Source of the DNA: Azospirillaceae bacterium
Lineage (GTDB): Bacteria > Pseudomonadota > Alphaproteobacteria > Azospirillales > Azospirillaceae
NCBI GenBank assembly: GCA_028277115.1
Contig: JANQHG010000166.1
Location: 1 to 42,713 of the forward strand
Reading direction: 5' to 3'
Length of the DNA stretch: 42,713 bases
Shown: one piece after another, positions 2,244 to 21,323 of the stretch
Numbering within the stretch: the stretch's first letter is position 1
Layout of the letters: each line of letters begins with the position of its first letter
Position numbers and translations under genes: made by a program
The notes under the pieces: generated by a model
Told to the model about the DNA's origin: nothing
Database searches by the model: none
Seen by the model: only the letters and a program-made list of their open reading frames with translations

Positions 2244-3449
2244 TCAGCCATCGCCGTCCGCGGCCCCGACCGACGGCAGGAAGAACCGAAAGATGCTGCC
2301 GAAGCCCACCCGGCTTTCCACGGTGATCTGGCCGCCGTGCGCCTCGACGATGCTCTTACAAATGGCGAGGCCGAGGCCGGTCGACGACTCGCCGCCGGTC
2401 GGTTGCACCGCGGCGCGGCGAAACGGTTGGAACAGATTCGGGATGTCGTGTTCCGGAATCCCCTGCCCCTGATCGATGATTGCAACGGCGACCTGGTCGG
2501 GACTTGGCAAGACCTCGATCCGGACCACGGTATCTATATGGGAGTACTTAATGGCATTAGATATCAGATTGTTTAAGACTTGATCGATCTTCCGACGATC
2601 GATCTCGATCACAATCTTCTGGTCGGTCAGGTCAGCGACCAACTCGATCCCTTTGCGGCCGGCAATGACCGAATTCAATCGGACACTGTTGCGGACCAGC
2701 TCGATCAGGTTGGTCTGCTCTCGGTTCAATTTAACTTCACCAAGGTCGGCATCCGAATAGTCCACCAAGTCTTCAACTATTTTTAACATAAAAATACTTG
2801 ATTCACGAATATTTCGAACGAAACTCAATTCAGTCTCAGTTAATCGTTTCGAAAGCATCAACTCGAGCATTTGGGCAAATCCGGAAATCACGCCAAGCGG
2901 ATTGCGTAAGTCATGTGCAGTAACGCCCAGGAGCATGCTCTTTCGTCGATTGAGTTCTTGTAATGCGGCATTTTTCTTTGACAGTTCTCTTTGAATATTT
3001 GCGAACTCGTTGTTCAACCTCATCATATCTTCAAAACCATCCGACGCCTCAAGCTGGATCGGTGCATTCGCTCGTTGCTTGAAAATCTGCCGAACTTGGC
3101 TGACATGTTCGTTGTTGATCCGTTGCATTTCTTCGAACAGGCCGCTGATCGCCTGGCCGGTCCGGCTTGCCACCACCAACAGCCGATCGCGGTCGACCAC
3201 ACCGGAGAAATGCATGGTCGCCGGCCGCCCGGTCAGAGGGACAGTCATTTCCCAATCGAACTCGGCGCCGTTGCGGCGCAATGCGGCGAAGAAGTTGAGC
3301 GCTTTGTGGAGATCTTCTCTTTGGATCAATGTCACGAATGGGACACCGATCGCGCCGGCTTCGTCGATGCCACAGTTCTGGTAGATGATCGCGGTAATCC
3401 GACCATCCAGCAGGCAATCAAGGACGAATCCGCCGCTGTGCTCGCCCAT
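2244..3449 (-). CDS. Soluble PAS-type sensor histidine kinase
   Basis: A 401-residue cytoplasmic kinase with no membrane segment. Residues 1-100 look like a degenerate PAS fold, residues 105-170 form a coiled-coil linker, and the HisKA H-box is TAHDLRNP with His179. The HATPase domain follows with an N-box around Asn298, a DQGQG G1 box (326-330) and a GLGLAI G2 box (358-363). It lacks a receiver domain, so a separate response regulator is needed, and none is in view. The gene starts 3 nt after the stop of the W-x9-EH cobalamin protein, so the two form a tight transcription unit. I infer that the cobalamin protein supplies or modulates the signal. The central part, especially about 2750-3050, is clearly richer in A+T than its neighbours. 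Confidence 0.92.
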   Translation of the reverse strand: MGEHSGGFVLDCLLDGRITAIIYQNCGIDEAGAIGVPFVTLIQREDLHKALNFFAALRRNGAEFDWEMTVPLTGRPATMHFSGVVDRDRLLVVASRTGQAISGLFEEMQRINNEHVSQVRQIFKQRANAPIQLEASDGFEDMMRLNNEFANIQRELSKKNAALQELNRRKSMLLGVTAHDLRNPLGVISGFAQMLELMLSKRLTETELSFVRNIRESSIFMLKIVEDLVDYSDADLGEVKLNREQTNLIELVRNSVRLNSVIAGRKGIELVADLTDQKIVIEIDRRKIDQVLNNLISNAIKYSHIDTVVRIEVLPSPDQVAVAIIDQGQGIPEHDIPNLFQPFRRAAVQPTGGESSTGLGLAICKSIVEAHGGQITVESRVGFGSIFRFFLPSVGAADGDG

Positions 3450-3452
3450 CGG

Positions 3453-4517
3453 TCATGCCGGGGTCGATCGGCCGACCAGCCGGTCGGCCACCGCGATCGC
3501 CGAAACGGCATCCGGCGCGGTGCCGTCGGCGCCGAGTTCGCGCCACAAGCCGCGGTCGACATTGAACGGATAGCCGCCGACCAGGATCCGCACCGACCGG
3601 GTGCGCGGGTCGGCGCGCAGTCCGTCGATCAACGCCCGCACCAACGGCAGATGCGCCGAAATCGTTGCCGAGACCGCCAGGATCGCGGCGTCGAGGGTGA
3701 CCACCGCCTCGATGACGCCGTCCGACGGAACGTTGGCGCCCAGGTAATGGGTGTCCCAGCCCTCCAGTTCGAACAGGTCGGCCAGCATCCGCATGCCGAT
3801 CTCGTGCAGCTCACCCGACACGCAGGTTGCAACCAGGACCTTGCCCAGTCGGCGTTCGGCAAAAATATACGGATAGAGTTGAGACATGATCATTTGGGTG
3901 ACGGCGGTGAAATAATGTTCCTCGGCCACTGTCACCCGGCCGGTCTGCCACAGGCGGCCCACATCGCGCAACGACGGTTGCAGAATGTCCAGGTAGATTT
4001 CCCTAATCGGCAACCCGTTGGCCGCGGCGTCCAAAATCAACTTGGCCGCCTCGCGCCGCTGCCGGTTCAAGACCAGGACGCTGTAGGTCCGCGCCAACGC
4101 GAAATGGCGATTGCCTTCGCGGACCTCGAAATCGATCGTCCGTGGCATCTGCTCGAAGCTGTCGCGGACTTGACGAAGATAGTCTACTGCAATCGCCGCC
4201 TCGGCTTTGCCGAGCCGCGCGTTCAGAACCTCCGGCATCACGTCAAGCAGGACCGAGAGGCGGTCATGATCTATCTTCTTTTCCGAAAAAACTATCTTTG
4301 CCCATGAAATATAATCATAAAAAATCCTCAGACTGGCTGAAGAGACCGCTGCGTGCAGATAGAGCAAATGGAACACCACGTCGTCGACGCACTTTTCCGG
4401 CGGACTGTCACTATAGTTTTGGGCCAGATGCGGAGATCTCCGATAATGAAGGTCGACGACCTCTTTGGCGAGCTCGCGCTCGCGGCCGCCGAACGCGCTC
4501 CCGGCAACATAGGTCAT
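3453..4517 (-). CDS. Cobalamin-binding protein with CarH-like W-x9-EH photoreceptor motif
   Basis: A 354-residue protein. Residues 1-150 are a helical region I do not recognise. Residues 155-222 form a four-helix cobalamin cap containing Trp190, Glu200 and His201. This is exactly the W-x9-EH spacing that in CarH covers the upper face of adenosylcobalamin and makes it light-responsive. Residues 226-330 are the B12-binding Rossmann domain, with ExHxxG (Glu236, His238, Gly241), a SAT segment near 283-285 and VGGYPF (313-318). There is no MerR or other DNA-binding domain. The ATG at 4517 has a GGGAG ribosome site; longer upstream reading frame looks non-coding. The histidine kinase follows after 3 nt. 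Known: the motif marks B12 photoreceptors. Inferred: a light sensor signalling through the kinase instead of DNA. Confidence 0.9.
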   Translation of the reverse strand: MTYVAGSAFGGRERELAKEVVDLHYRRSPHLAQNYSDSPPEKCVDDVVFHLLYLHAAVSSASLRIFYDYISWAKIVFSEKKIDHDRLSVLLDVMPEVLNARLGKAEAAIAVDYLRQVRDSFEQMPRTIDFEVREGNRHFALARTYSVLVLNRQRREAAKLILDAAANGLPIREIYLDILQPSLRDVGRLWQTGRVTVAEEHYFTAVTQMIMSQLYPYIFAERRLGKVLVATCVSGELHEIGMRMLADLFELEGWDTHYLGANVPSDGVIEAVVTLDAAILAVSATISAHLPLVRALIDGLRADPRTRSVRILVGGYPFNVDRGLWRELGADGTAPDAVSAIAVADRLVGRSTPA

Positions 4518-4926: not shown

Positions 4927-6906
4927 TTAGGCCGTGCCGACGGTCCCGCCCCCCCTCGCGAGCGGGAAGCGGACCGCGACCGCGGTCCCTTCGCCGCGGC
5001 AGCTGGTCACGGTGACGTCGCCGCCGTGGAGCCGGACCAGGGCATGGACGATCGACAGACCAAGGCCGACGCCGCCGCTCTTGCGGTTGTAGTCATGGTC
5101 TTCCTGGTGGAACGGCTCGAGCACCCGGCCGATTTGCTCCTCGGCGATCCCGATGCCACGGTCGCGCACCGTCACTTCGAGCCATCCGGCGCTGTCGGCC
5201 GAGGGCGGCACCGGGTGCCCGTCGATCGCGATTACGGTGTCTTCGTGGGCGAATTTGACCGCGTTCGACAACAGGTTCAGCATGACCTGCCGGAACGCCA
5301 GCTCGTCGGCGTGGATCATCACCGCGGTGGTCTCGCCGACCGCGAGTTTGAGGCGTCGGCGTTCGAGATCGAGCCGCAGCAGGGGTTCGAGTGCCAGGAT
5401 CGCGCGTCGGGCCTCGAAGCTGCCCCAGCGCAACGCGCGTCGCCCGGCCTCGATCCGGCTGAAGTCCAACAGATCGTTGATCAGCGCCAGCAGATGGCGA
5501 CCGCTGCCGTGGATGTCGCTGGCATAGTCGCGCATCGCGGGCGGGGTCGCGTCGTCGTCGCGGATCACCCCGGACAGGCCGATCACCGCGTTGAGCGGGG
5601 TGCGCAGCTCGTGGCTCATGTTGGCGAGGAACACCGATTTCGCCCGGTTCGCCGCCTCGGCCTTGTCGGCGAGCGCCTCGGCGGTCAGCTTGGCCTGGAT
5701 CAGCCGTTCTTCGCGTTCGCCGATTGCCTGGATGAAAAAGCACGCGGCTTCGCCGATCTCGGCGATCTCGTCGCGGCCGTCGGCCGGGATCGCCACCGGC
5801 TGGCCACGGATGCGGGCCCCGAGCGCCTCGCGCAAACCGACAAGGCGCGACAAAACCCCGCGCCAAATGTAGAGCGACAGGCAGGCAACCGCCACCAACA
5901 AGGCGCCGCCGACCGCGGCCAAGCCCAATTCGGTGCGCCGGGCCAGCGCCGCGAACTGACGGCGCCGCGCCTCGGTCTGGGCCACCAACATGGATTGCAG
6001 ATCGGTCACCGCGCCGGTGAACCGACTGGCGAAGTACTTGTTCTGGTTGAGTAAACCGTCAAGTGCACCCTCAGATCGCACCAGCGCGATCAACCGTGCC
6101 GCCACCCCGTCCTCCGAATCGAGCAGATCGGTGATCTGTCGGTCAAGCGCGTCGAGCCGCACGCCGAGTCCGTCCGTGCCCGCGATGCCGTCCGCGACCG
6201 GCGCGCTGCGGTCGAGCGCGCGCCGGTCGCGCCACGCCGCGGTCGCGCCCCGAATGATGCGCCGGATCAACGCCCGGTTGCGGTGCTGCAGCGCGTTGCG
6301 CAGATCATGGACGATCGTGCCCGCGCGATCGAGCCATATCAAGGCCGCGATCAGGCCTGCGCGCGCGGCGTCCGACGGGTCGGCACCGAGCGCCAGCGCC
6401 CGCACCCGTCCGACCAGAGCCAGGATCTCGACGTCGACCGCCTGGGCCGCGCGTGCTTGTGCCGAGACCGCCTGCTGGCTCGCGATCCGGATCACCACCG
6501 CTTGGTCGAGCGCTTCGAGGTTGGCGATCAGCGCGCGCCGCTCGGCGCGAATGCGATCGAGCGCCGGGCCGCTGTCGATGTTGAACGCCGCCGCCCGCGC
6601 CGCGACCGCGTCGAGATAGCGGTCGAGATCGGCGAACTGGTCGGTCAGTTCGTGGGTGACGGTTCGGCGAGCAAACTCGCTGTCCACGGTGGCGAGCGCC
6701 GGTGCGACCGAGGCGATCGCCTGGCTGGTCAGCGCAATCCGAGCGGTGTCGCCGAACTGCGGCAAGGTGTTGCGCGCGAGATGGTCATAGCCGGTCAGCA
6801 CATGGTTGAACACCATCGCGCTGCCGGCAAGCGCGCCGCACGCGACCACGCCGAGACCGCCGATCGCGGCGATCAGTCGGACCGAAATCAGCGGGCGATG
6901 CGCCAC
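4927..6906 (-). CDS. Membrane-bound sensor histidine kinase with large periplasmic domain
   Basis: A 659-residue kinase. TM1 spans about residues 10-32, and a mostly helical, alanine/arginine-rich periplasmic domain fills 33-325. TM2 spans about 326-348 and is followed by a HAMP-like linker (350-405) and a coiled coil. The HisKA H-box is [11 protein letters not shown] with His432, and the HATPase domain has Asn548, RDRGIG (581-586) and GVGLGLS (612-618). No receiver or Hpt domain is attached, so it is not a TorS-type hybrid. The start codon is GTG, with no obvious ribosome site. It follows a periplasmic binding protein by 42 nt and may read its ligand state, as TorT-TorS pairs do. That pairing is inferred from position only. 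Confidence 0.9.
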
Positions 6907-6948
6907 ACGACGGGCTCGGTCGGTCGGGACGCGCCAAGGCGACCGGGG

Positions 6949-8049
6949 TTACAGGAACGGCGGGGCATAGATCAGACCGCCCTGGCGCCACAGGGCATTG
7001 AGGCCGCGGGCCAGACCGACCTTGGACCCGCGCCCGAGGGTCCGCTCGAAAATCTCGCCATAATTGCCGACCGCTGCGATCACCCGGCGCCCGAAATCGG
7101 CGGCGAGGCCGAGCTTGGCCCCGATCTCGCCGTCGAGGCCGAGCAGGCGGCGGACCTCGCGGTTGCGCCAACGATCGGCGCTTGCCCGGTCCGCGGTCGC
7201 GCCGTCGCCGCGCGCGGCGAGCGCTGCCCGGGTGACCCCCTGCTCCTCGGCGACGATGGTGGCAAAGGTCACCCACTGGACGACGTCGCGCCAGGCATCG
7301 TCGCCCTCGCGCACCACCGGCCCGAGCGGCTCGCGCGAGATCACGTCCTCCAACAGGGTATAGTCCGCCGGATCGGACGCCCGCGTCAGTCGTTCGGACA
7401 CCAGCGAGATCCGGTCATGGGTGAAAAGATCGCAGGCGCGTGCGAAAAAGGCGCCGTACCCGCCTTTCAGCGAGCGATAGACCCTGATTTCGAGCGGCAG
7501 GGCCCGGATGCGCACCAGATCGCGCAGGTTCTGCAACGTGGTCGTGGCGTCGAGGACGCAGACGGTGGCGGGACCGAGCTCGGCGACCCGCCGGGCCCCG
7601 AGCACGCCGTGGGCCAAGAAACCCTGGCCGTCGTAAAACAGGGGCGAGGTGAAGGCAAGACCGGCGCTGGCGTCCCGGCTCGCGGTCCAGGTCGAGTTGG
7701 CGATCAGGACGTCGTACGCGCCGGCAACCAGCGCCTCGAAGCGCACGACCAGATCGACCTCGACGAAGTCGACCGCGTCCGGTTCGCCGAAGATCGCGGC
7801 TGCGACCGCGCGGCAGAACTCGGGAAAGAAGCCCTGCCACTGGCCGTCGAGGTCGATCTCCGACACCCCGACCCCGGCCCGGGTCACCCCGCAGCGCAGA
7901 ACGCCCCGCGCGCGCACCTCGCCCAGTGTCCCGTGATCCGCCGGTGTCGCGCGGTCAGCCGCCCCGGCAGCGCCGGCACCGATTACCGGCGCACTGACCA
8001 CCGACACCGCCAAGACCGCCGCCGCGAGCCTGCATTGCCATGCGCCCAT
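6949..8049 (-). CDS. Periplasmic amino-acid-type (family 3) solute-binding protein
   Basis: A 366-residue protein with a classic signal peptide (about residues 1-31, hydrophobic core then GAAGAADR). The SBP_bac_3 fold begins VRARGVLRCGVT and includes GFFPEFCRAVAAA and a FTSPLFYDGQGF segment. The C-terminal YGEIFERTLG is typical of AapJ-type general amino-acid binding proteins. The ATG at 8049 is preceded by GGAGAGG; a GTG one codon earlier is the alternative. No permease or ATPase gene is adjacent. Its neighbours are elbB upstream and a histidine kinase downstream, all on one strand with gaps of 36 and 42 nt. I infer a sensing role for the kinase, or an orphan binding protein. Confidence 0.9.
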   Translation of the reverse strand: MGAWQCRLAAAVLAVSVVSAPVIGAGAAGAADRATPADHGTLGEVRARGVLRCGVTRAGVGVSEIDLDGQWQGFFPEFCRAVAAAIFGEPDAVDFVEVDLVVRFEALVAGAYDVLIANSTWTASRDASAGLAFTSPLFYDGQGFLAHGVLGARRVAELGPATVCVLDATTTLQNLRDLVRIRALPLEIRVYRSLKGGYGAFFARACDLFTHDRISLVSERLTRASDPADYTLLEDVISREPLGPVVREGDDAWRDVVQWVTFATIVAEEQGVTRAALAARGDGATADRASADRWRNREVRRLLGLDGEIGAKLGLAADFGRRVIAAVGNYGEIFERTLGRGSKVGLARGLNALWRQGGLIYAPPFL

Positions 8050-8085
8050 CACGCCTCTCCGTCCGCGCGCGACCCGCAGGTCGGT

Positions 8086-8763
8086 TCAAATCCCGGCCCC
8101 GGGACGCGCGAGCGCGACCAGCGCCGCAACCGTCGCATCGGCGCCGTCGGCGATCTGGGCGACCGTCGCCTCCAGCATGTAGCACGGGCTGGTCACCAGC
8201 TTACGGGTTTGATCGATCACCACCTCTGCGTGCCCGGTCGGGGTGTGGCGGGCGCCCATCGCCTCGATCGCACCGGCGACGCCGGCATCCTGGCCGATCG
8301 TAAGCTCGCCGGCGCCGAACAGCTTGGCCAGGATCACCGGCGCGATGCACAAGGCGCCGACCGGCTTTTCGGCCGCGACCATCGCCCGGACCGCCGCCGC
8401 GACGGCGTCGTCGACCGTGCAGTCGGCGCCGTCGACCGCGAAGTTCGACAGGTTCTTGGCCGCGCCGAAGCCGCCCGGCATGATCAGGATGTCGGCGTCG
8501 TCGGCCGAAAAGCCGGCCAGATCCTTGATCTTGCCGCGGGCGATCCGCGCCGCCTCGATCAGCACGTTGCGGGTCTCCGGCATCTCGTCGCCGGTCAGGT
8601 GGTTGATCACATGGTGCTGGGCAATGTCGGGGGCGTAGCACTGAGCGACATGGCCGCCCCGGCTGATCGCAAGCAGGGTCAAGGTGGCTTCGTGGATTTC
8701 CGCGCCGTCATAGACCCCGCAGCCGGACAACACGACCGCAAATCGCAAGGGTTGGTCAGCCAT
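8086..8763 (-). CDS. elbB: Isoprenoid biosynthesis glyoxalase ElbB (DJ-1/PfpI family)
   Basis: The 225-residue length is close to E. coli ElbB (about 217). The sequence carries the family signatures: VLSGCGVYDGAEIHEA near the N-terminus, the IMPGGFGAAKNLSNFA loop (94-109) and the nucleophile elbow GALCIAPVILAK with Cys139. ElbB has weak glyoxalase activity and was linked genetically to isoprenoid synthesis; its physiological substrate is unsettled. It is the first gene of a likely three-gene unit with the binding protein and histidine kinase. Nothing in the sequence explains that grouping. Confidence 0.95.
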   Translation of the reverse strand: MADQPLRFAVVLSGCGVYDGAEIHEATLTLLAISRGGHVAQCYAPDIAQHHVINHLTGDEMPETRNVLIEAARIARGKIKDLAGFSADDADILIMPGGFGAAKNLSNFAVDGADCTVDDAVAAAVRAMVAAEKPVGALCIAPVILAKLFGAGELTIGQDAGVAGAIEAMGARHTPTGHAEVVIDQTRKLVTSPCYMLEATVAQIADGADATVAALVALARPGAGI

Positions 8764-10116: not shown

Positions 10117-11256
10117 TCACAACAGGCCGCACGCCGACAGCCAGTACATCCGGTTGTAGGCAAGCTTGAACCAATGGACCATCTGGGTCGGCGGGGTCGG
10201 CCGCGGCGGGGTCTTGTAGTTGAACCAAATGTAAGTCCCGCGCGACAGCCCGGTTTCGATAAAGCAGAACACCTTGCCGTCGTATTCGCGCGACCACCGG
10301 CCCTCTTGGACCATCATGGTCAGGTTCTCGACCACGGTGTCGGCCTGGAAGTGCGCGGTCGAGCCCGCCTTGGAGATCGGGATATTGGTGGTATCGCCGA
10401 TCACGAACACATTGTCCGAGCCTTCACGCAAGAGCGTCCGCGGGTTGGTCGGGATCCAACCGCCGGCGCCGAGGCCTGAGTCCTCGATCACCTGGGCGCC
10501 GCGGTGCGGCGGGATGGTGATCAACAGATCATATTCGAAGCTGTCGCCTTCTTCGGAGTGGACGACTTTCTTGGCGACATCGACTTCCTTGGTGTTGAAG
10601 AAGGTCTGATACTTGATGCCGCGGCGGTCGAACTCGGGCACCGCCCATTCCGCGACCGGCTCGAGCGAATGCAGCCGCCCGATCGGGTAGGTGTAGGTGA
10701 TATCGAACTTGCCCTCGAGCCCGCGGTCGCGCAGATGCTCGTCGAGCATCAGCGTGATCTCGAGCGGCGCCACCGGGCATTTGTGCGGCGCGTTGACGTT
10801 GATTACGATCCGGCCGCCCTCGAACGCGTCGATCGCGCCCCGCAGCTTGCGCGCACCTTCAAGATCGTAGCAATGGTAGGCGCCTTCCGTCAGGCCGGGG
10901 ATCTGTTCCGGCACCAGGCGCGAGCCGGTCGCGATCACCAGATAGTCGTAGCCGTAGCTCTTGCCCGACTGAGCGACCACCCGGTTGGCGTCGACGTCGA
11001 TGTGGGTCGCCGGATCGATCACGAAATTGATCCGACGGTCGAGAATCGAACGCTCTTGCCGCTTCAGCTCCTGGCTGCGGACCCGTCCGAACGGGACGTA
11101 CAAAAAGCCGGGCTGGTACATATGGTCGTTACTGGTACCCAGCACCGTGACATTGACGTCGCCCGAGCGCAACTCGTGCGACAGACGCCGGGCCAAGCCG
11201 TTGGCAACGATGGTGCCGGCCATACCGCCACCGACAATCAACAGTCTTGCGGTCAT
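10117..11256 (-). CDS. sqr: Sulfide:quinone oxidoreductase (SQR)
   Basis: A 379-residue FAD disulfide oxidoreductase. It has the N-terminal FAD-binding motif LLIVGGGMAGT (5-15), an IATGSR segment (108-113) and a VFVIGDTTNIP FAD-contact (283-293). The three redox cysteines of SQR have counterparts at Cys129, Cys160 (NAPHKCPVAP) and Cys331 (VFCFIETG), close to Cys128/160/356 of the Acidithiobacillus enzyme. The tail is rich in aromatic residues (HWFKLAYNRMYWL), fitting membrane attachment. It oxidizes sulfide to polysulfide/sulfane sulfur and reduces quinone. I chose the ATG at 11256 (GAAGGACC ribosome site, and the FAD motif starts there). The upstream 11257-11421 gap contains an AT-rich tract (11333-11372) that is unusual here and may be its promoter region. 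Confidence 0.93.
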   Translation of the reverse strand: MTARLLIVGGGMAGTIVANGLARRLSHELRSGDVNVTVLGTSNDHMYQPGFLYVPFGRVRSQELKRQERSILDRRINFVIDPATHIDVDANRVVAQSGKSYGYDYLVIATGSRLVPEQIPGLTEGAYHCYDLEGARKLRGAIDAFEGGRIVINVNAPHKCPVAPLEITLMLDEHLRDRGLEGKFDITYTYPIGRLHSLEPVAEWAVPEFDRRGIKYQTFFNTKEVDVAKKVVHSEEGDSFEYDLLITIPPHRGAQVIEDSGLGAGGWIPTNPRTLLREGSDNVFVIGDTTNIPISKAGSTAHFQADTVVENLTMMVQEGRWSREYDGKVFCFIETGLSRGTYIWFNYKTPPRPTPPTQMVHWFKLAYNRMYWLSACGLL

Positions 11257-11421
11257 CTCTTGGGTCCTTCCGTCTGTTTGACGTGTTTCCTCCAAAGCGA
11301 CCACCGTTACGCGGGCTGCGCCGGCGGTCAGGTTTTTTGTCTTGATCACTCTTTTTTCTTGTTGATTTTTCTGGTCCGTGCGCCCGGCACCTGAAGACGT
11401 CCCGATCCGCCCGACCGGGGC

Positions 11422-11652
11422 TCACTTCATCCGACGCACCACGATCGACCAATGGGTGCCGTGGTCGTCGGACGAGACCAGTTGATGGCCGACCTTGCGG
11501 GTCCAGGCGGGGATATCATTGGCCGAGCCCTTGTCCGACGACAAGACCTCGATCTCGTCGCCGACCGCGATGGTCTTCAAGGCGGCGATCATTTCCATCA
11601 TCGGGCCGGGGCAGAAGGCGTTGCGGGCATCGATGGTGGTTCGGTTGGACAT
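11422..11652 (-). CDS. tusA: Sulfur carrier protein TusA
   Basis: A 76-residue TusA/SirA-family protein. The active site is FCPGPMM with Cys14 in the CPxP motif, at the start of the first helix as usual, and the expected VGDEIEVLSSDKG strand-turn follows. TusA accepts sulfane sulfur as a persulfide and hands it to DsrEFH/DsrC in sulfur oxidizers. It has a good AGGAG ribosome site and lies 32 nt downstream of dsrN, so it is probably the last gene of the dsr transcript. The rhodanese and dsrE2 genes that often accompany tusA are not next to it. Confidence 0.95.
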   Translation of the reverse strand: MSNRTTIDARNAFCPGPMMEMIAALKTIAVGDEIEVLSSDKGSANDIPAWTRKVGHQLVSSDDHGTHWSIVVRRMK

Positions 11653-11684
11653 GGCGGCGGTCTCCTCTCGATCGCTCGATACGG

Positions 11685-13091
11685 TCAGGGACGGGTGGGA
11701 CGGGCATCCGCCGTCCGGCGGACAAAAGCGGCGAAGCGGTCCGGCCAAGGCCGGGCGCCGACGCCGCGCAGGTGGCTGAACGAGGCCAAGGTGTTGGCGG
11801 TCACGATGCCGTCGTCGCGGCCGGTGATGCCGTGGCCGCGTGCCACCTGATAGGCGAACCGGGTTTGGGGGCCGAGATTTTCGAGCCGCCCGTAATGGAA
11901 CTCGTGCGCCGGCGTGGTGGTGCCGACCCCGCCGCCGGGCCAGGGCGCATCCGCGGTCTCGCTGAGCACGACATAGCCCTTGCCCTGGGGCCGCGGCTCG
12001 ATCACCGCGTCGGCGTCGATCGCGCCGACCATCTCGGCGCGCCGGCCGTCGCGGGCGAGGCTGCGGGAGAGATACATGAGCCCGCCGCACTCGGCATAGA
12101 CCGGCAGCCCGGCCGCGACCGCCCGGCGGATCTCGGCGCGCAGGCTGCGATTGGCCTCGAGCGCGTCGAGATGGGTTTCGGGAAAGCCGCCGCCGAGGAA
12201 CAGGCCGTCGAGATCCGGCGGCAAGGCCGGGTCGTTCAGCGTGTCGACCGGCACCAGCTCGAGCCCGGCCGCCTCCAGCCCCTCGAGATCGTCGGGGTAG
12301 TAAAAGCCGAAGGCGCGGTCGCGGGCGATCCCGACCCGCCGCCGCGGGCCTGCGTCGGGCGCGACATGGCCGGTCTCGGCGGCCGGGACCGGCGGCGCGC
12401 CGAGCGACGCCGCCGCGTGCGCGATCGCCTCGAGACGGTCGAGGTCGACCGCGTCCCTGATCACGGCCGCGATCGCGGCGATCCGCTCTTCGGCCTCGGG
12501 CAGCTCGTTGGCCGGGGTCAGGCCGAGGTGGCGCTCGGTGATCGCGAGCGCGGGCGTGCGCGCGACCGCGCCGACCACCGCCAGGTCGGTATAGGCCTCG
12601 ACCGCCCGGCGCAGCTTGGCCTCGTGGCGCGGCCCGGCGACCTTGTTCAAGATCACCCCGGCAAGCGCGACCGCGGGGTCGAACCGGCGATAGCCGACCA
12701 ACAGCGGCGCGATCCCGCGGGTGATCCCGGAGCAATCGACCACCAACACGACCGGCACCGCCAACAGCTTGGCCAACGCCGCGCCGCTGTCCCGACCGTC
12801 GAGCGCGACGCCGTCGTGAAGGCCCTTGTTGCCCTCGATCACCGACAGGTCCGCGGTCGCGGCATGGCGGGCAAACAGCGCCGCCAACTCGGGCTCGCTC
12901 AGCGTGTGGTGATCGAGGTTGCGACACGGCCGGCCGGCGGCGACCGAAAGCCACAACGGGTCGATGAAGTCCGGCCCCTTCTTGAACGGTTGGACCCGGC
13001 GGCCGCGCGCGCGCAAGGCCGCGGCGATGCCGAGCGTCACCGTGGTCTTGCCCGAGGATTTGTGCGCCGCCGAGATCATCACCCGTGCCAT
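11685..13091 (-). CDS. dsrN: DsrN, siroheme amidase (CobB-like glutamine amidotransferase)
   Basis: This 468-residue protein resembles cobyrinic acid a,c-diamide synthase. It has an N-terminal P-loop SSGKTT (12-17), the FKKGPDFIDPLW segment (36-47), and a C-terminal class I glutaminase domain with the nucleophile in YAECGGLMY (Cys335). In dsr clusters this enzyme amidates siroheme to the siro(heme)amide bound by DsrAB, using glutamine and ATP. Position after dsrP in the canonical order supports DsrN over a cobalamin enzyme. A B12 role cannot be excluded, since B12 proteins occur in the window. The ATG at 13091 precedes the P-loop directly; further upstream the frame shows no homology. Confidence 0.92.
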   Translation of the reverse strand: MARVMISAAHKSSGKTTVTLGIAAALRARGRRVQPFKKGPDFIDPLWLSVAAGRPCRNLDHHTLSEPELAALFARHAATADLSVIEGNKGLHDGVALDGRDSGAALAKLLAVPVVLVVDCSGITRGIAPLLVGYRRFDPAVALAGVILNKVAGPRHEAKLRRAVEAYTDLAVVGAVARTPALAITERHLGLTPANELPEAEERIAAIAAVIRDAVDLDRLEAIAHAAASLGAPPVPAAETGHVAPDAGPRRRVGIARDRAFGFYYPDDLEGLEAAGLELVPVDTLNDPALPPDLDGLFLGGGFPETHLDALEANRSLRAEIRRAVAAGLPVYAECGGLMYLSRSLARDGRRAEMVGAIDADAVIEPRPQGKGYVVLSETADAPWPGGGVGTTTPAHEFHYGRLENLGPQTRFAYQVARGHGITGRDDGIVTANTLASFSHLRGVGARPWPDRFAAFVRRTADARPTRP

Positions 13092-13150
13092 CCGGTCGTC
13101 CGCTCCCCTTCCCTCGCCTCGCCTCGCCTGAATTGCCGGTCCCGATCTGG

Positions 13151-14335
13151 TCAGCCGCCGATCGCGCGCACACCGGCGCCGGCGCTCGCCTTGGGCAGGA
13201 TGCGGAACAGCCGGCAGGCGACGATCGCGACCGTGGCGGCGATCGCGAGCCCGCCGACCCCGAACACCCACTCGACCAAGGCCGGCTGATAGGTCGCAAG
13301 CGCACCGTCGCCGAACGCCGACGTCACGGTCATGCCGGGCAGGATCGCCTGGGGCAGCACCTGGGCGCTGATCAGGGTGACGTAGACGGTGGCAAAGCCG
13401 CCGACCACGGTGGCGGCCGCCGCCGCGATCGGCCGGCCGCCGAACGCCAGCACCAGCGCGACCACGGTGCCGAGGCCGATCTGGCCGCCCCAGAACAGCG
13501 CGGTGTAGACCCCGCCCTCGACCAACAGAAACGCGACCACGTCGCGCCCGTCCGGCGCATACAGGTGCACCGCCTGCAGCACCACCGCGAGATAGGCCGA
13601 GACCGCGACGAACAGCCCGAGCAGCCGGCCGAGCCGTTGCATCAGGGCGCGGTCGGTGGTGCCGCCGCCGAGCCAGGCCAGCCCGGGCAGCGCCAGCAAA
13701 AACACCGCGAGCCCATAGGTCAGGGCGAGCGAAATGAACAAGGGTGCCAAGACCGCCGAGTGGATCAGCTCGCGCCCGACCAGGACGCCGAGGTCGAGCC
13801 CGGTGCCGGTGGTCAAAACGAACCGCCAGATGTTCGCCGTGTGCCCGGTGATGCCGCCGAACCAGGCGAACCGGCGGTCGATCACCGTGATCAGATGGGC
13901 GACCGCGACCGCCATGAAGCCGGTGTAGAGCACCACGTTCCAAGCGAAGATCGAGCGCGGGTTGGCGCTGGTCATGGTCAGCATCAGCCGGTCGGGCCGG
14001 CCGAGGTCGAGCACGAGCAGGCTCAAGCCGCCGACCAGGCACGCAACCGCGATCAACGCCGACAAGGGCTCGAGCGGCTTGTAATCGGCGCGCCGGAACA
14101 CCGACGCGATCACCGCGACGTTGAGCGCGCCCGACGCCGACAGGATCAGAAAATAGGCGAACACATGGGGCAGGCCCCACGGCACCCGGTTGGTCATGCC
14201 GGTGATCTGGTGCCCGGCGAGCGCCATGATCAGCGCCGCGCCGAGCCCGGCGACGATCGCGGCGGCGAACACACCGAGTATCGGCAAAAGCCGCCCCGGG
14301 CGGACGGCGATGAGGTCGTAGGCGATCGCGGCCAT
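13151..14335 (-). CDS. dsrP: DsrP, NrfD-family membrane subunit of DsrMKJOP
   Basis: A 394-residue integral membrane protein with about ten hydrophobic helices spaced along its full length, beginning RLLPILGVFAAAIVAGLGAA. It is in the NrfD/PsrC family, which moves electrons between a periplasmic iron-sulfur protein and the quinone pool. In DsrMKJOP it pairs with DsrO. The gene starts 33 nt after dsrO stops and is followed by dsrN after about 60 nt. I see no haem-binding pattern. Confidence 0.93.
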   Translation of the reverse strand: MAAIAYDLIAVRPGRLLPILGVFAAAIVAGLGAALIMALAGHQITGMTNRVPWGLPHVFAYFLILSASGALNVAVIASVFRRADYKPLEPLSALIAVACLVGGLSLLVLDLGRPDRLMLTMTSANPRSIFAWNVVLYTGFMAVAVAHLITVIDRRFAWFGGITGHTANIWRFVLTTGTGLDLGVLVGRELIHSAVLAPLFISLALTYGLAVFLLALPGLAWLGGGTTDRALMQRLGRLLGLFVAVSAYLAVVLQAVHLYAPDGRDVVAFLLVEGGVYTALFWGGQIGLGTVVALVLAFGGRPIAAAAATVVGGFATVYVTLISAQVLPQAILPGMTVTSAFGDGALATYQPALVEWVFGVGGLAIAATVAIVACRLFRILPKASAGAGVRAIGG

Positions 14336-14368
14336 CGGGGCAGCCCCTTTAGAACGTCAACGCGTGGT

Positions 14369-15181
14369 TCACAGGTCGCCGTAATGCACGGCGGTGCCAA
14401 GGCCGAGGTCCGGGCGCAGCCGCGCGGTCGGCAACTCGGCGAGCGCCGCGCGGATCGGATCGTCCGGGTCGGCAAGGTCGCCAAAGCGCATCGCGCCGCC
14501 GCCGGCCGCCGCGCACGCCTCGACGCACGCCGGGATCTGGCCCTGGTCGATCCGGTGGACGCACAGCGTGCAGCCCTCGGCCGTGCCCTGGCCGCGCGGC
14601 ATGTGCGGGCGCTGGTCGGTCAGCGCGCCGGGCGTAAAGAAGCGGGCGCTGAACGGGCACGCCATCACGCAATAGCGGCAGCCGATGCAGCGGTGGCGGT
14701 CGACCAGGACGATGCCGTCGGCGCGCCGGAAGGTCGCGTGGGTCGGGCAGACGTCGCGGCACGGCGGCGCGGCGCAGTGCTGGCACATCAAGGGCAGGTT
14801 GAGGGTCCGGCCGTGGGTGTCGTCGGTCGCCGACACCAGACGGATCCAGTGCGGGTCGTGGGCGCCGTGGTCGCCGGCGTGCCAGCCGTGCTCGGTCTGG
14901 CAGGCCTCGACGCAACGCGCGCAGCCGTCGGCGCAGTGGCCGAGCTCGATCAACAGGCCCCAACGCTGGGCCGGGCTGGCCGGGGTGCCCGGCGGCCGTG
15001 CCGCCCCCGGGGCGGCCCCGGTGATCAGCACCACGCCGGGGGCGAGCATGGTGGCGGCGGCACCGGCGGCGAACGCCGCCAGCGCCTGCCGGCGCGACCG
15101 CCCGGCCGGGCGCGGTGCGTCGGTCTCGGCCATCGGGCACGCGGACGTCGGACGATCGGACGTGCGGCGGGGATCGGTCAT
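14369..15181 (-). CDS. dsrO: DsrO, periplasmic iron-sulfur subunit
   Basis: A 270-residue ferredoxin-like protein with a twin-arginine signal (GRSRRQALAAF, then a hydrophobic core through about residue 55). It is therefore exported folded. Sixteen cysteines fall in four groups: CADGCARCVEAC, CQHCAAPPCRDVC, CIGCRYCVMAC and CTLC followed by ACVEAC. This is the layout of NrfC/HybA-like electron-transfer subunits. In the Dsr complex it links DsrJ and DsrP. The ATG at 15181 overlaps the dsrJ stop (ATGA). An internal ATG at 15133 would also keep the Tat signal, so the first 16 residues are uncertain. Confidence 0.93.
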   Translation of the reverse strand: MTDPRRTSDRPTSACPMAETDAPRPAGRSRRQALAAFAAGAAATMLAPGVVLITGAAPGAARPPGTPASPAQRWGLLIELGHCADGCARCVEACQTEHGWHAGDHGAHDPHWIRLVSATDDTHGRTLNLPLMCQHCAAPPCRDVCPTHATFRRADGIVLVDRHRCIGCRYCVMACPFSARFFTPGALTDQRPHMPRGQGTAEGCTLCVHRIDQGQIPACVEACAAAGGGAMRFGDLADPDDPIRAALAELPTARLRPDLGLGTAVHYGDL

Positions 15182-15657
15182 AGCGCGTCTCCGCTGTGCG
15201 CCCGGCCGGCCGGGTGATGGGCGACCGTGTGGCCGTCCGCGGTCTCGGGCGTCGCGCGGTGGCACGAGAAGCAATCGGCGGCGACCGCGGTCTGGTCGTG
15301 GCAGCTGCGGCAGAAGTGGCGCGGGTCGTCGTGGCCGACCGGGACCCCGGCGGCGTCGGCGACCGCGTGGCACTCGATGCAGCCGTGAAGCGCCCACTCG
15401 GCGTTGCGCCGACCGTCGCGCACCACCTCGTCCCGGACCTCGAACAGCACGTCCATATGGCGCACCCGCATCTCGGGCCCGGGCAGGACACAGCTGCCGG
15501 TCTCGGCCGCGGCCGCGGTGTCGGGCAGCTCGGGGGCGGCCTGGCCGGCCCACAGCAAAATCCAGGTGACCGCCAGCACCGCAAGACCGGCGAGCAAGGG
15601 GGCCCGGGCGCTCCGTCCCATCAGGGCGCGGGGGCCGATCGGCGGCGGCGCGCTCAT
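15178..15657 (-). CDS. dsrJ: DsrJ, triheme cytochrome c
   Basis: A 159-residue protein with one N-terminal membrane anchor (about 19-37), an uncleaved signal of the usual DsrJ type, and three CxxCH sites at 93-97, 116-120 and 129-133. Cys56, in GSCVLPG, matches the conserved extra cysteine proposed as the axial ligand of the unusual His/Cys haem. The protein sits on the periplasmic side of the DsrMKJOP complex. Its start overlaps the dsrL stop and its stop overlaps the dsrO start, so dsrLJO are translationally coupled. Confidence 0.95.
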   Translation of the reverse strand: MSAPPPIGPRALMGRSARAPLLAGLAVLAVTWILLWAGQAAPELPDTAAAAETGSCVLPGPEMRVRHMDVLFEVRDEVVRDGRRNAEWALHGCIECHAVADAAGVPVGHDDPRHFCRSCHDQTAVAADCFSCHRATPETADGHTVAHHPAGRAHSGDAL

Positions 15658-17597
15658 TCCCCGAGCCCCATCTGGATATAGCCGGTCGGGCAGACGTCGT
15701 GGCAGACATGGCAACCGATACACAAAATGTAGTCGGTCTCGACATAGCGGCCCATCATCCGCTCGGCCTTCGGCACCCGGGCGACCGCCTGCTGCGGGCA
15801 GAACACGACGCAGTTGTCGCATTCGATGCACAGCCCGCAGCTCATGCAACGCTTGGCCTCGGCGGCCGCCTCGGCCTCGGCGAGCGGCGACAGGCGCTCA
15901 CCGAAATCGCCCAGCACCTGGTCGCCCGCGACCTCGCGCTCGCGCCGGTGGTGGCGCGCGGTCGGCGGGAAATGGCCGAGGAACAGGGCCTCGTGCGGGA
16001 TGATCTCGTGCGCCGAGCGGTCTTCGTAATTGTGCACGGCAAAGCCGGCGGTGTCGGTGCCGCGGGTCGGGTGATCGACCGTGGTCGGCGCACGGCCGAC
16101 CGCCTCGAGCCGGGCCGCGAGGTCGAAGCGCGGGCCGTCTACTTTGGACCGGCGCGCCGGGGGCCGGCCGGCCAGAAACTGGTCGATGCTGTCGGCGGCG
16201 ATCCGGCCCTGGCCGATCGCCGCGGTCATCAAGCCGGGGCGCACGATATCGCCGCCGACGAAATGGCCGGACCGGCCGGGCACCGCCTGCTGGCGGTCGG
16301 CGTTGATCAGCCCCTGGCCGTTGTCGAGCGCCTTCAGGTCGCCGAGGTCGCCGGTCTGGCCGATCGCGATCACCAACAGCTGGCACGGCAGATCGAAGGT
16401 GGTGCCGTCGACCGGGATCGGGGTCATGCCGTCCATCTCGCAGCGGCAGAGACGCAGGCCCTTGACCCGGCCCATGTCGTCTTTGAGGACCTCGAGCGGC
16501 ATCACGCCGCCGCGGATCTCAACGCCTTCGCGCTGGACCGCCTCGACCTCGCGCGCCGCCGCCATCATGCGGTCGATCGGGAAGATCGAGGTCAAGGTGA
16601 CGTCCGCGCCCTTGCGCCGCGCGGTGGTCGCGACGTCGTGGGCGATCTGGCCGAGCATCGCGCTCGAGGGTCGGTCCTTGTCGTGCGACTGGGTGACGTG
16701 ACCGAGCCGGCGCGCCACCGCCGCGACGTCGAGCGAGGTGTCGCCGCCGCCGATCACCACGACCTCGCCCGAGACCGAGCGCAGGCGGCCTTCGTTGAAC
16801 GCGCGCAGGAACTCGACGCCGGTGATGCAATTGGCGGCGTCGGCGCCCGGGATCGGCAGGGTCTTGCCGGCCTGGGTGCCGAGCGCCCAGAAGATCGCGT
16901 CGAAGTCGCGTTCGAGATCTTCGATCGTGATGTCGCGGCCGACCCGGGTGTTGAGCCGAACCCCGACCCCGAGCCCGAGGATGCGCTTGATCTCGGCGTC
17001 GAGCACCGGGCGCGGCGTGCGATAGCCCGGGATGCCGTAGCGCAGCATGCCGCCGAGCGCGTCATGGTCGTCGAACAGGGTCACGGTGTGGCCGCGCCGG
17101 CGCAGGTGATAGGCGGCCGACAGCCCGGCCGGCCCGCCGCCGACCACCGCGACCTGCCGCCCGGTCTCGGCGACCGGCTTGGGGAACGCGACCTGATTGG
17201 CGAGCGCCCAATCGCCGATGAAATGCTCGACCGAGTTGATCCCGACGTGGTCGTCGAGTTCGTTTCGGTTGCAGGCGTCCTCGCACGGTGCCGGGCAGAC
17301 CCGGCCCATCACCGCCGGGAACGGGTTGGCCAGGGTGAGCCGGCGGAACGCGTACTCCTGCCAGGCCAGACCGTCGGGCGGGATGTCCTGGCCGCGCACG
17401 ATCGCAAGCCAGCCGCGGACATCGTGGCCCGACGGGCAGGCGCCCTGGCACGGCGACGCCTTGTGGACGTAGGCCGGGCATTTGTGGGACGCGCCGGCCT
17501 TGAATATCTCGTCCTGCCACACCACCGGGCGATGATCGCCATCGACGTAGCGTCGGAAGGTCTGGGCGTCCGGCGGCGCTGCGGCGGTCGCGGTCAT
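15654..17597 (-). CDS. dsrL: DsrL, NAD(P)H:acceptor oxidoreductase of the oxidative Dsr pathway
   Basis: A 647-residue iron-sulfur flavoprotein. Order: N-terminal Cys groups (Cys40, 50, 54 and 101, 105, 109), as in GltD-type proteins; an FAD site AVVGGGPAGLSAAYHL (150-165); a second dinucleotide site VVVIGGGDTSLD; and a C-terminal domain with two [4Fe-4S] motifs (CMSCGLCIECDNCVVFC and CIGCHVCHDVC). DsrL takes electrons from DsrAB and reduces NAD(P)+; its presence with dsrEFH marks the sulfur-oxidizing direction. A 103-bp spacer without a gene separates it from dsrK. Confidence 0.96.
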   Translation of the reverse strand: MTATAAAPPDAQTFRRYVDGDHRPVVWQDEIFKAGASHKCPAYVHKASPCQGACPSGHDVRGWLAIVRGQDIPPDGLAWQEYAFRRLTLANPFPAVMGRVCPAPCEDACNRNELDDHVGINSVEHFIGDWALANQVAFPKPVAETGRQVAVVGGGPAGLSAAYHLRRRGHTVTLFDDHDALGGMLRYGIPGYRTPRPVLDAEIKRILGLGVGVRLNTRVGRDITIEDLERDFDAIFWALGTQAGKTLPIPGADAANCITGVEFLRAFNEGRLRSVSGEVVVIGGGDTSLDVAAVARRLGHVTQSHDKDRPSSAMLGQIAHDVATTARRKGADVTLTSIFPIDRMMAAAREVEAVQREGVEIRGGVMPLEVLKDDMGRVKGLRLCRCEMDGMTPIPVDGTTFDLPCQLLVIAIGQTGDLGDLKALDNGQGLINADRQQAVPGRSGHFVGGDIVRPGLMTAAIGQGRIAADSIDQFLAGRPPARRSKVDGPRFDLAARLEAVGRAPTTVDHPTRGTDTAGFAVHNYEDRSAHEIIPHEALFLGHFPPTARHHRREREVAGDQVLGDFGERLSPLAEAEAAAEAKRCMSCGLCIECDNCVVFCPQQAVARVPKAERMMGRYVETDYILCIGCHVCHDVCPTGYIQMGLGE

Positions 17598-17700
17598 GCG
17601 GTCGATCTCCCTTCGAATGCGTCGTCAACCCGTATTCGGAGGGTCGGCGTGCGGCCGACCCGGGCGCGCGGGACGCGCACCCTCCGTGGCCCGCGGCCGC

Positions 17701-19200
17701 TCATGCGCCGGCCCCGAGGCGGAGCGCCTTGCCGATCAGCTGATGCAGCGACACCACCATCTCCATCTCGAAGCCGTAGTGCGGCAGCACCGCGGTGAAC
17801 TGGCTTTTACAGATCGCGCACATCGCGACCATGTGCGTGACGCCGTCGTCCTCGACGACCTGGCGCAACGCTTCGGCGCGCGGCTTGGTCCCCTTGATCC
17901 GCAGGTCCATCAACTCGTCGGTCAGAAGCCCGCCGCCGCCGCCGCAACAGAACGTCTTGTCCTTGACCGTCGAAGGGTGCATTTCGACGAAGGTCGGCAC
18001 GCACGCCGCGAGCAGCTCGCGCGGCAGGCTGAACTGGCCGCCCGGGCGGTCGCCGAGCCGGGCGGCACGCGCGACGTTGCAGCTGTCGTGCATGGTCGCG
18101 ACCACCCCTGCGTTGGCGTCGCGGTCGAGCTTGACCGCGCCGCGGCTGACCAGATCATGGGTGACCTCGATGATGTGCTGGGGCACCGGGTAGCGCGGAT
18201 CAAGGAAGTCCCACGGGCCCGCAAAGGTGTTGAGGAACGAGTAGGCAACCCGCCAAGCGTGCCCGCACTCGCCGAACACCAGCCGTTTGACCCCGAGATC
18301 GAGCGCCGCCTCGCGGATCCGGCTGGCGACCTTGTGCATCTGGTCGTACGACCCGATGAACAACGCGAAGTTCGCCGCCTCCGAAGCATGGCTGCTGATG
18401 GTCCAGTTGATCCCGGCCTGGTGGAAAATCTTGGCGTAACCGATCAGCCCGTCGACATGGGGTTCGGCGAAGAAATCCGCCGACGGCGTGACCAACAGGA
18501 CGTCGGCACCCTTGACGTCGAGCGGGAACTTGACCGGTACCCCGGTGTCCTCGAGCACGTCTTCTTCCAGACCCTCGAGCGTGTTGCGCAGGGCAGCGGC
18601 GGACAGGCCGAGGTTGTTGCCCTTGTCATGGACCTTGGTGATGACTTCGTTGGTGTATTTTTGCCCCTTGCCGATCACGTCCATGATATCGCGGGCGGCC
18701 ATCGAGATTTCCGCGGTATCGATGCCGTACGGGCAAAAGACCGAGCAGCGCCGGCATTGCGAGCATTGGTGGAAATAGTTGTACCACTCATCGAGCACGT
18801 CTTCGGTCAGCGGCCGCGCCCCGGCGAGATTGCCGAGCCACTTGCCCGCGGTGGTATAATGATGGCGGAACACGCTGCGCAGCAGGTCCTGGCGCGCGAC
18901 CGGCATGTTGTAGGGATCGGCGGTGCCGAGGAAATAGTGGCATTTATCGTGGCAGGCGCCGCATTTGACGCAGATGTCGAGGAACACCTGGAGCGATTGA
19001 TAACGCGCGACCAGCTCGCCAAGGCGCGCGACCGCGACCTCCTGCCAGCCGTCGACCAACTCGCCCGGAAAGCCGAGCGGCTCCTGGTGGCTGGGCTTGG
19101 CCGGGTGGGACCGGCAGTCGCGCATCGCGCCGGGGACCGGCCGCGGCGGCCGATCGGCGGCAAGGTCCGGACTGAGCGTGGGAACAGCGTAGGCGGTCAT
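17701..19200 (-). CDS. dsrK: DsrK, HdrD-like iron-sulfur catalytic subunit
   Basis: A 499-residue cytoplasmic protein. It has two ferredoxin-type motifs (CVKCGACHDKC, 77-87; CSQCRRCSVFC, 146-156) and the CCG-domain cysteines of HdrD (MHDSCN, FCCGGGGG, and CAICKSQ near the C-terminus), which bind a catalytic [4Fe-4S] centre. DsrK is the proposed site where the DsrC disulfide/trisulfide or persulfide is handled. It lies between dsrM and dsrL in standard order, 24 nt downstream of dsrM. No truncation is visible. Confidence 0.96.
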   Translation of the reverse strand: MTAYAVPTLSPDLAADRPPRPVPGAMRDCRSHPAKPSHQEPLGFPGELVDGWQEVAVARLGELVARYQSLQVFLDICVKCGACHDKCHYFLGTADPYNMPVARQDLLRSVFRHHYTTAGKWLGNLAGARPLTEDVLDEWYNYFHQCSQCRRCSVFCPYGIDTAEISMAARDIMDVIGKGQKYTNEVITKVHDKGNNLGLSAAALRNTLEGLEEDVLEDTGVPVKFPLDVKGADVLLVTPSADFFAEPHVDGLIGYAKIFHQAGINWTISSHASEAANFALFIGSYDQMHKVASRIREAALDLGVKRLVFGECGHAWRVAYSFLNTFAGPWDFLDPRYPVPQHIIEVTHDLVSRGAVKLDRDANAGVVATMHDSCNVARAARLGDRPGGQFSLPRELLAACVPTFVEMHPSTVKDKTFCCGGGGGLLTDELMDLRIKGTKPRAEALRQVVEDDGVTHMVAMCAICKSQFTAVLPHYGFEMEMVVSLHQLIGKALRLGAGA

Positions 19201-19224
19201 CTTGGCAACGGGCCTCTCGTCCGG

Positions 19225-19965
19225 TCAGCGGGGGCGCAGGTCATCGAGCGGGCGGGCCCACGAGACCAGGTGGCGGCGTTCGCGCGCGTTGTCGCACTGG
19301 GCGCGGGTCGGGCTGAAGAACACGCCCGCCATGTGCAGAAGCTTGGAAAACGGTGCGACCGCCATCAGGACCGCGGCGAGCACGAGGTGCAGCACCAACA
19401 CCGGGTCGTCGGGCAGCGGTGCCGGGGCGAACCGCCACAGGCCGGCGAGAAAGATCTTCAGCCCCATGATGTCGGCCGGCGCCGCCAGGGTCATGACCAG
19501 GCCGGTCGCGCCGATCGCGAGCAGCAGCACCAGGACCGCGAGATCGGTCGCCCGGGTGATCATCCGGACCGAGGGCAGGAACAGCCGGCGCGCCAGCAGC
19601 CCGGCGAGCCCGACCATCATCGCGCCGGCGCCGAGCACGCCGAGCGGCTGGATCGCCTCGATCGGCCACGGTACCGGGTTCAGGACATAGCGCAGATGGC
19701 GCAGCAGCACGAGCGCGAGCCCGGCGTGGAACAGGGCCGACAGCGCCCACAACACCTTGTCGGCGCGGAACAGGCTCTCGAACAGCAAGACCTCGCGCGC
19801 CAGCCGCCCGGCAGCGCCGAGCCGGGTCAACGGCGCCGGCGTGGTCGGGATGCGCAAGGGCGCCGGGGTCGCGGCATAGACCCAGACCTTGTTGGCAAGA
19901 CCGAGCACCAACACCCCGACCGCAAAGACCAACAGCGTGCCCACCACCGCGTCGAAAAAAGACAT
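19225..19965 (-). CDS. dsrM: DsrM, cytochrome b membrane subunit
   Basis: A NarI-like integral membrane protein of 246 residues with about five to six hydrophobic helices. It starts MSFFDAVVGTLLVFAVGVLV and contains a VLVLHLVLAAVLMAV helix and a late FSKLLHMAGVFF helix. Histidines in these helices are candidates for haem b ligands. It exchanges electrons with the quinone pool and with DsrK. I chose the ATG at 19965: a GGGGG ribosome site precedes it and the first helix begins there. A start at 19989 would add eight residues. Confidence 0.92.
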   Translation of the reverse strand: MSFFDAVVGTLLVFAVGVLVLGLANKVWVYAATPAPLRIPTTPAPLTRLGAAGRLAREVLLFESLFRADKVLWALSALFHAGLALVLLRHLRYVLNPVPWPIEAIQPLGVLGAGAMMVGLAGLLARRLFLPSVRMITRATDLAVLVLLLAIGATGLVMTLAAPADIMGLKIFLAGLWRFAPAPLPDDPVLVLHLVLAAVLMAVAPFSKLLHMAGVFFSPTRAQCDNARERRHLVSWARPLDDLRPR

Positions 19966-20055
19966 CACGCCCCCAAAGACTGCCCCCATGCGAAAACAAG
20001 ACCTCGCGGTCCCCGGACCCGCTGGCGTGCCCGGGGATCTCGAGAGGCGGTCCGG

Positions 20056-20388
20056 TCAGACGCAGCCGGTCGGTTTCGGCAAGCCGGCGATCTTGCACGC
20101 CTGCTTCGCCGGGCCGTACGGGAACAGCTCGTACAGATACTTGTTGTTGCCCTTCTCCGCCCCGAGCCGCTTGCCCATCGCCTTGGTCAGGACGCGGATC
20201 GCCGGGGCGATCTGGAATTCCTGGTAGTATTCACGCAAGAAATTGACCACTTCCCAGTGTTCCGGGGTCATGGTCAGGTCTTCGGTCTGGGCGATGTGGT
20301 TGGCGAGGTCTTCGCTCCATTGCCCGATATCTTCCAGGAACCCTTCCTCGTCATGCTCGATGCTGGTGCCGTTGAACTGATAGGCCAT
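20056..20388 (-). CDS. dsrC: DsrC, sulfur-carrying protein
   Basis: This 110-residue protein of the DsrC/TusE family ends in the swinging arm with both essential cysteines, Cys98 and the penultimate Cys109 (PTGCV), spaced by ten residues. True DsrC has both; TusE has only the last. It carries sulfane sulfur to DsrAB and the product interacts with DsrK. A near-perfect AAAGGAGGA ribosome site lies before the ATG, fitting high expression. It is 90 nt upstream of dsrM. Confidence 0.97.
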   Translation of the reverse strand: MAYQFNGTSIEHDEEGFLEDIGQWSEDLANHIAQTEDLTMTPEHWEVVNFLREYYQEFQIAPAIRVLTKAMGKRLGAEKGNNKYLYELFPYGPAKQACKIAGLPKPTGCV

Positions 20389-20483
20389 TGTTTCCTCCTT
20401 TATTCAGCTCTTGTGGCTGGGATGGCTCTTACGAGTCCCTTCCCGACCGGCCTGTCGGCCATATGGGGGACGGTGCCCCCTTG

Positions 20484-20563: not shown

Positions 20564-20590
20564 TCGGCGGACCGTCCGTCCGCCCCCGTC

Positions 20591-20893: not shown

Positions 20894-20906
20894 TGGATCG
20901 GCCTCC

Positions 20907-21308: not shown

Positions 21309-21323
21309 TTGGAGCTCATATCC

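Follow-up and report, generated by a model that had tools for sequence, protein, structure and literature searches.

What does a cobalamin-binding protein sense, and through what does it signal, when it carries no DNA-binding domain and is encoded next to a histidine kinase? The question is raised by two neighboring genes on a contig of an Azospirillaceae bacterium (the window, that is, the whole stretch of 42,713 nucleotides that was analyzed). The initial annotation had read the first product, here called the sensor, as a CarH-like B12 photoreceptor coupled to the kinase. Its gene and cobalamin-contacting elements are the following:

3453..4517, minus strand: sensor coding sequence, 354 residues, a photoglobin-B12 protein (translation, Pfam, alignment of the 75-member family, structure model with mean pLDDT 93)
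3876..4091, minus strand: B12-binding_2 four-helix cap, residues 143-214 (Pfam PF02607, 1.6e-13)
3495..3836, minus strand: B12-binding Rossmann domain, residues 228-341 (Pfam PF02310, 2.3e-21)
3948..3950, minus strand: W190, corresponding to CarH W131 (alignment; invariant in 75/75 relatives)
3915..3920, minus strand: E200-H201, corresponding to CarH E141-H142 (alignment; both invariant in 75/75 relatives)
3795..3812, minus strand: ELHEIG (E236-L-H238-E-I-G241), with H238 as the predicted lower axial cobalt ligand (74/75 relatives)

The W190-x9-E200-H201 arrangement and the ExHxxG motif around H238 lie exactly where they had first been noticed, and pairwise alignment with Thermus thermophilus CarH confirms their equivalence, placing W190, E200, H201 and H238 on W131, E141, H142 and H177. 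The four elements by which light-responsive cobalamin domains are recognized, GxxW, EH, GxxH and GxxxP (PMC11796333), are all present (GRLW187-190, E200H201, GELH235-238 and GANVP260-264) and nearly invariant among the 75 relatives. The sensor also lacks a MerR or any other HTH domain, as had been proposed; Pfam gives B12-binding_2 and B12-binding only. The B12 residues are thus those of CarH, but a CarH without its DNA-binding domain is the wrong comparison: the nearest neighbors in the PDB are photocobilins, the N-terminal domain is a globin, and the second cobalt ligand of CarH in the light, H132, is replaced by Q191. Gln occupies this position in 63/75 relatives, and also in the photocobilin SasPcob (PMC11796333). 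Against the NCBIfam CarH model NF052513 the sensor scores 55.6 bits, the cut-off of 400 not being reached. One ortholog with a kinase partner, from Azospirillum sp. OGB3 (L035:7510-8571, the same as L045), has Arg in place of the lower axial His (GEQREIG), so that cobalamin would there need to be bound without a His ligand.

The N-terminal portion of approximately 150 residues, which the initial annotation could not place, is identified by an HMM search of the family profile against the PDB:

4143..4490, minus strand: photoglobin (phycobiliprotein-like) domain, approximately residues 10-125 (family profile against the PDB; helical model)
4380..4391, minus strand: C43-V-D-D46, at the place of the CxRD/CxQD bilin motif, D46 corresponding to SasPcob Asp270 (ungapped alignment)
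4302..4304, minus strand: W72, invariant, aligned with SasPcob Trp296 (ungapped alignment)

The top PDB matches of the full sensor are the photocobilins 8J2W, 8J2X and 8J2Y, and the single-sequence search gives a faint second match, in which the C-terminal domain of SasPcob aligns with sensor residues 41-99. With phmmer, the N-terminal domain alone has no meaningful match in the PDB; the globin is seen only with the family profile. Positions 10-102 of the profile built from 75 relatives match the SasPcob globin (8J2X/8J2W) with an i-E-value of 2.5e-6 and AbPcob (8J2Y) with 4.9e-5; independently, the same profile matches chains of allophycocyanin and phycocyanin, the best being an allophycocyanin at 3.2e-6. 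The predicted structure of the sensor (mean pLDDT 93) starts with a run of helices, as a globin would show; Foldseek matches of this model are dominated by the B12 domain and so say nothing separate on the globin. In SasPcob, whose published numbering runs 6 ahead of the chain index (as Trp61/Glu71/His72 show), Asp270 and Trp296 are the main contacts of biliverdin (PMC10979010); their equivalents in the family are D46, conserved in 73/75 members, and W72, conserved in 75/75. The bilin motif, CVDD in the window sensor, occurs among relatives as CxQD, CxED and, in a few, CxRD, and the family thus includes the CxQD type ascribed to photoglobins (Rockwell et al. 2023, PMC10151467). Judged by sequence, the N-terminal domain is a photoglobin, a phycobiliprotein-like globin of bilin-binding type placed before the B12 domain, and the sensor as a whole is a photoglobin-B12 fusion of the photocobilin type, possibly with two chromophores, B12 and a bilin.

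The sensor belongs, with this, to a kind of protein that has already been described. Photoglobin-B12 proteins were reportedly predicted by Schneider et al. in 2022 and, according to papers citing that work, are globin-B12 fusions like the one in the window. The photocobilins SasPcob and AbDPcob were characterized and crystallized in 2024 (Zhang et al., PMC10979010; PDB 8J2W, 8J2X, 8J2Y). As in the window sensor, a B12 domain with the W, EH and H residues is joined to a globin of bilin-binding type with Asp and Trp as bilin contacts, and SasPcob shares the Gln after the signature Trp. However, the globin stands behind the B12 domain in SasPcob and AbDPcob and in front of it in the window sensor (both orders are mentioned for photocobilins; PMC10979010), and the output of the former is a fused GGDEF domain or none, whereas that of the latter would be a separate PAS-kinase. 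CarH and LitR have the B12 fold and the adenosyl- and cobalt-contacting residues in common with the sensor, but combine them with a MerR HTH, the H132 bis-His ligand and DNA output, where the sensor has no HTH, Q191, an extra globin and a candidate kinase output. The BBAG-2 globins (PMC10151467), finally, are related bilin-binding globins that, as in the sensor family, are associated with a B12 domain and with heme-to-bilin genes; there, however, the globin and the B12 domain are encoded separately, and the enzymes are of the heme oxygenase/PcyA-like type, in contrast to the IsdG-like neighbor found in the sensor family.

The presumptive output of the sensor is encoded directly downstream:

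2244..3449, minus strand: kinase coding sequence, 401 residues, a soluble PAS-type sensor histidine kinase (translation, Pfam, structure model)
3159..3449, minus strand: PAS-like partner domain, residues 1-97 (conserved beside the sensor in relatives whatever the output; model)
2742..2942, minus strand: HisKA, residues 170-236, with the phospho-accepting H179 in HDLRNP (Pfam, 8e-12)
2271..2600, minus strand: HATPase_c, residues 284-393 (Pfam, 8.3e-28)

Only 3 nt separate the sensor stop from the kinase ATG, and the description of the neighbor as a soluble PAS-type kinase agrees with its Pfam domains and with the PAS topology of its first ~95 residues. This topology is read from the order of secondary-structure elements in the predicted model, as Pfam reports no family for the N-terminal partner domain and Foldseek matches of the kinase model are dominated by the kinase core. 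The H-box HDLRNP is intact, and H179 is invariant among the aligned partners.

Surveyed across genomes, as had been proposed with the initial annotation, the gene pair recurs widely. When 84,980 species genomes were scanned with an alignment built from sensor sequences only, at least 80 loci were obtained, in Azospirillum/Skermanella, Chloroflexi, Bacteroidota, Verrucomicrobia, Paenibacillus, Lokiarchaeota and others. Directly downstream and on the same strand, 73/80 loci listed have a gene with the PAS-like domain, and in 71 of these 73 the domain starts within 100 bp of the sensor stop (median 27). What follows the domain varies: the 75 partners (the scan loci, the paralog in the window's genome, and one Azospirillum locus a second time) comprise 64 kinases, 4 GGDEF proteins, 5 instances of the domain alone and 2 others. 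Pairwise distances of sensors and partner domains correlate at 0.76, against a permutation maximum of 0.15; this shows joint inheritance, the common descent of the species being included in the figure. The pair is real and old, being kept from Azospirillum to Chloroflexi, Bacteroidota, Paenibacillus and Lokiarchaeota, and the conservation of residues and of the gene pair across phyla lends good support, at the level of sequence, to the coupling of a kinase with a protein of the B12 photoreceptor type. The further proposal of a B12-light two-component system is supported in part: the kinase is intact, and response regulators stand beside the pair in Azospirillum (a single-domain one, upstream) and several other relatives (after the kinase), which supports a two-component output for the family; in the window itself, a receiver profile detects no response regulator. 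Skermanella has a sensor without a kinase.

Other arrangements are seen in individual loci. A Verrucomicrobiales contig carries two single-chain versions, divergent from each other (L041:1428-5273 and 5956-8556): one is a photoglobin-B12-PAS-kinase fusion of 866 residues, and the other chain, of 1281 residues, adds two receiver domains. Elsewhere (L093:4608-7002), a tandem of two photoglobin-B12 genes precedes the gene for a GGDEF protein with a PAS domain.

On balance, we favor the view that the two genes form a two-component sensor of the photocobilin type. Adenosylcobalamin would be held between the four-helix cap (W190, E200, H201) and the Rossmann domain, with H238 as the lower ligand, while the photoglobin would fold against the corrin edge and may carry a linear tetrapyrrole via D46 and W72. 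By analogy with SasPcob and AbDPcob, the dark state would be a head-to-tail dimer loaded with adenosylcobalamin; light would break the Co-C bond, upon which the adenosyl group would leave, the helix carrying E200 and H201 move, and the dimer loosen. Since the second His of CarH is a Gln here (Q191), a light state with water as ligand and with a modest structural change is expected, as in SasPcob. Through contact between the two proteins, the PAS-like domain of the neighboring kinase would receive this change in trans, an action that has a precedent in photocobilin domains acting on a separate GGDEF protein (PMC10979010). Autophosphorylation at H179 would thereby be altered, be it upwards or downwards, and with it phosphorylation of a response regulator encoded elsewhere. 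This view is supported by the signature elements, the photocobilin matches of both the B12 part and the globin in the PDB, D46 and W72, the 73/80 listed pairs, the 64/75 kinase partners, the L041 fusion, the adjacent response regulators of relatives, and a phototrophic host with an adenosyltransferase; against it count the many relatives from anaerobic or dark-living groups, the absence of PF01126 from the window's genome and from 33/40 family genomes, the lack of a detected response regulator in the window, and the Skermanella sensor without a kinase.

A rival reading concerns the globin. Its pocket may be empty, the domain being a mere structural cover of the corrin edge; B12 would then be the single chromophore and the response limited to green/UV, and we give this reading a chance only slightly below even. 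It agrees with the absence of a PF01126 heme oxygenase from the window's genome and from 33/40 family genomes (7/40 have one), with AbPcob, which keeps its globin yet binds biliverdin poorly (PMC10979010), and with SasPcob Trp296, which touches the corrin too, the conservation of W72 being one that could reflect B12 contact alone. An empty pocket accounts less well for the pyrrole-contacting D46, kept in 73/75, and for the IsdG-like protein, of heme-degrading type, that 20/80 listed loci encode next door:

L066:5650-5949, L068:5644-5940, L078:5671-5970, L107:5657-5953, and 16 more loci: IsdG/HmuQ-like gene of ~98 residues

In these loci, which belong to Bacteroidota, Verrucomicrobia, Gammaproteobacteria and others, the small gene directly precedes the sensor gene, in one case in divergent orientation, and has no further copy in the locus. 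Its products match Pfam ABM in 20/20 cases; the closest named models are HmuQ and the staphylobilin-forming IsdI, below cut-off where shown, and the PDB matches are TT1380, HmoB, IsdI and MhuD. Of the active-site residues of IsdG, Trp and His are kept, and the Asn that is catalytic in IsdG/IsdI (position 6) is Ser in 20/20, so that heme-degrading activity is not to be assumed. Cys43 is commoner in sensors with this neighbor (16/19 vs 20/55, p = 4e-4, relatedness ignored). Heme oxygenase was rejected as the bilin source on the distribution of PF01126 given above, which makes the identity of the bilin uncertain; with PF01126 in only 7/40 family genomes and not in the window's, the IsdG-like neighbor would fit a local source. 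IsdG-type enzymes yield products other than biliverdin (PMC9393634). It is conceivable, if rather improbable, that in hosts without heme oxygenase the IsdG-type enzyme of the same operon makes the bilin of the sensor (not biliverdin IXalpha), and that heme cleavage, B12/bilin sensor and PAS-kinase constitute a complete dual-chromophore light-signaling module, in which exchangeable outputs are connected to the sensor through an unvarying PAS partner domain. A single HmuQ-like gene (L122), which has Asn6, is present in the window's genome, where it directly follows a heme-transporter-like ABC gene.

Among the relatives, many belong to lineages that are anaerobic or live in the dark (Lokiarchaeota, Clostridium, Desulfoferrobacter), and light may thus not be the universal signal of the family. 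This distribution, together with the missing canonical heme oxygenase in most family genomes, favors a sensor that reads cobalamin supply, oxygen or redox, with adenosylcobalamin occupancy or the state of cobalt setting the conformation read by the kinase; we nevertheless hold it to be unlikely, as the invariant adenosyl-contacting W, E and H are typical of light-responsive domains and the window's host is a phototroph. That the sensor instead serves methyl transfer as a corrinoid carrier, in the manner of the methyltransferase system encoded at 256-1985, with the kinase an incidental neighbor, is very improbable: MtaA-like and corrinoid genes do follow on the same strand, and MtgC/MtbC-type models match the B12 part weakly, but these matches lie far below the cut-offs (61.7 bits against 370 for MtgC, 46 against 350 for MtbC), the EH pair, invariant in the sensor family, is missing from the true corrinoid protein at 1317-1985 (W-QEGRIALSQ-IY), and the constant neighbor in relatives is the PAS-domain gene.

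A photocobilin-type light sensor fits the host, whose genome (4.77 Mb, 94% complete) encodes photosynthetic reaction-centre genes, as well as a corrinoid adenosyltransferase. Another contig of this genome holds the pair a second time (L005:5408-7746, G000:C12); the sensor there keeps D46, W72, W190, E200, H201 and H238, but in its partner the PAS-like domain precedes a region in which no HisKA or HATPase domain is recognizable (pseudokinase-like).

A diguanylate cyclase is known to be under photocobilin control (PMC10979010). The gene downstream of the sensor, whose PAS-like domain stays the same while its outputs vary, points to the physiological partner of standalone photocobilins in many phyla, and makes B12-light two-component signaling testable with two small soluble proteins. 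The IsdG-like neighbor raises the question of which tetrapyrrole would occupy the globin in hosts without heme oxygenase. A conserved PAS partner, predicted to act in trans, and this neighbor are the additions to the known family; in the literature searched, we found no earlier report of a constant PAS partner with exchangeable outputs or of the IsdG-like neighbor, and Schneider et al. 2022 (PMC8717448) may include the PAS partner. A soluble kinase controlled by green light, if true, would be a useful optogenetic part.

Several further features of the host and the window may be recorded. Photo_RC (PF00124) has five matches on four contigs (G000 C130, C251, C78, C75), exceeding one L/M pair; the surplus represents either extra reaction-centre copies or assembly fragments. 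In the window, the genes at 256-1985, downstream of the kinase and on the same strand, encode an MtaA/CmuA-like methyltransferase and a small corrinoid protein. A second kinase, of membrane type and with weak similarity to the TorS sensor domain, is encoded at 4927-8052, immediately upstream of the sensor, beside a gene for a periplasmic solute-binding protein. Positions 10117-11349 encode a protein resembling Type III sulfide:quinone reductase (NF049943, 2.2e-100, below cut-off), adjoined by a gene with a weak DUF1641 match. A sulfur-oxidation cluster of the reverse-Dsr type extends over 11422-24456 (NrfD/DsrP, Fe-S DsrO, DsrL-like, DsrK-like, DsrM-like, siroheme reductase, TusA, CobB-like). 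The CobB-like gene at ~11.7-13 kb was considered for cobalamin synthesis and rejected, as its neighbors (NrfD, Fe-S proteins, a DsrL-type oxidoreductase, siroheme reductase, TusA) favor DsrN; it is probably the DsrN of this cluster.
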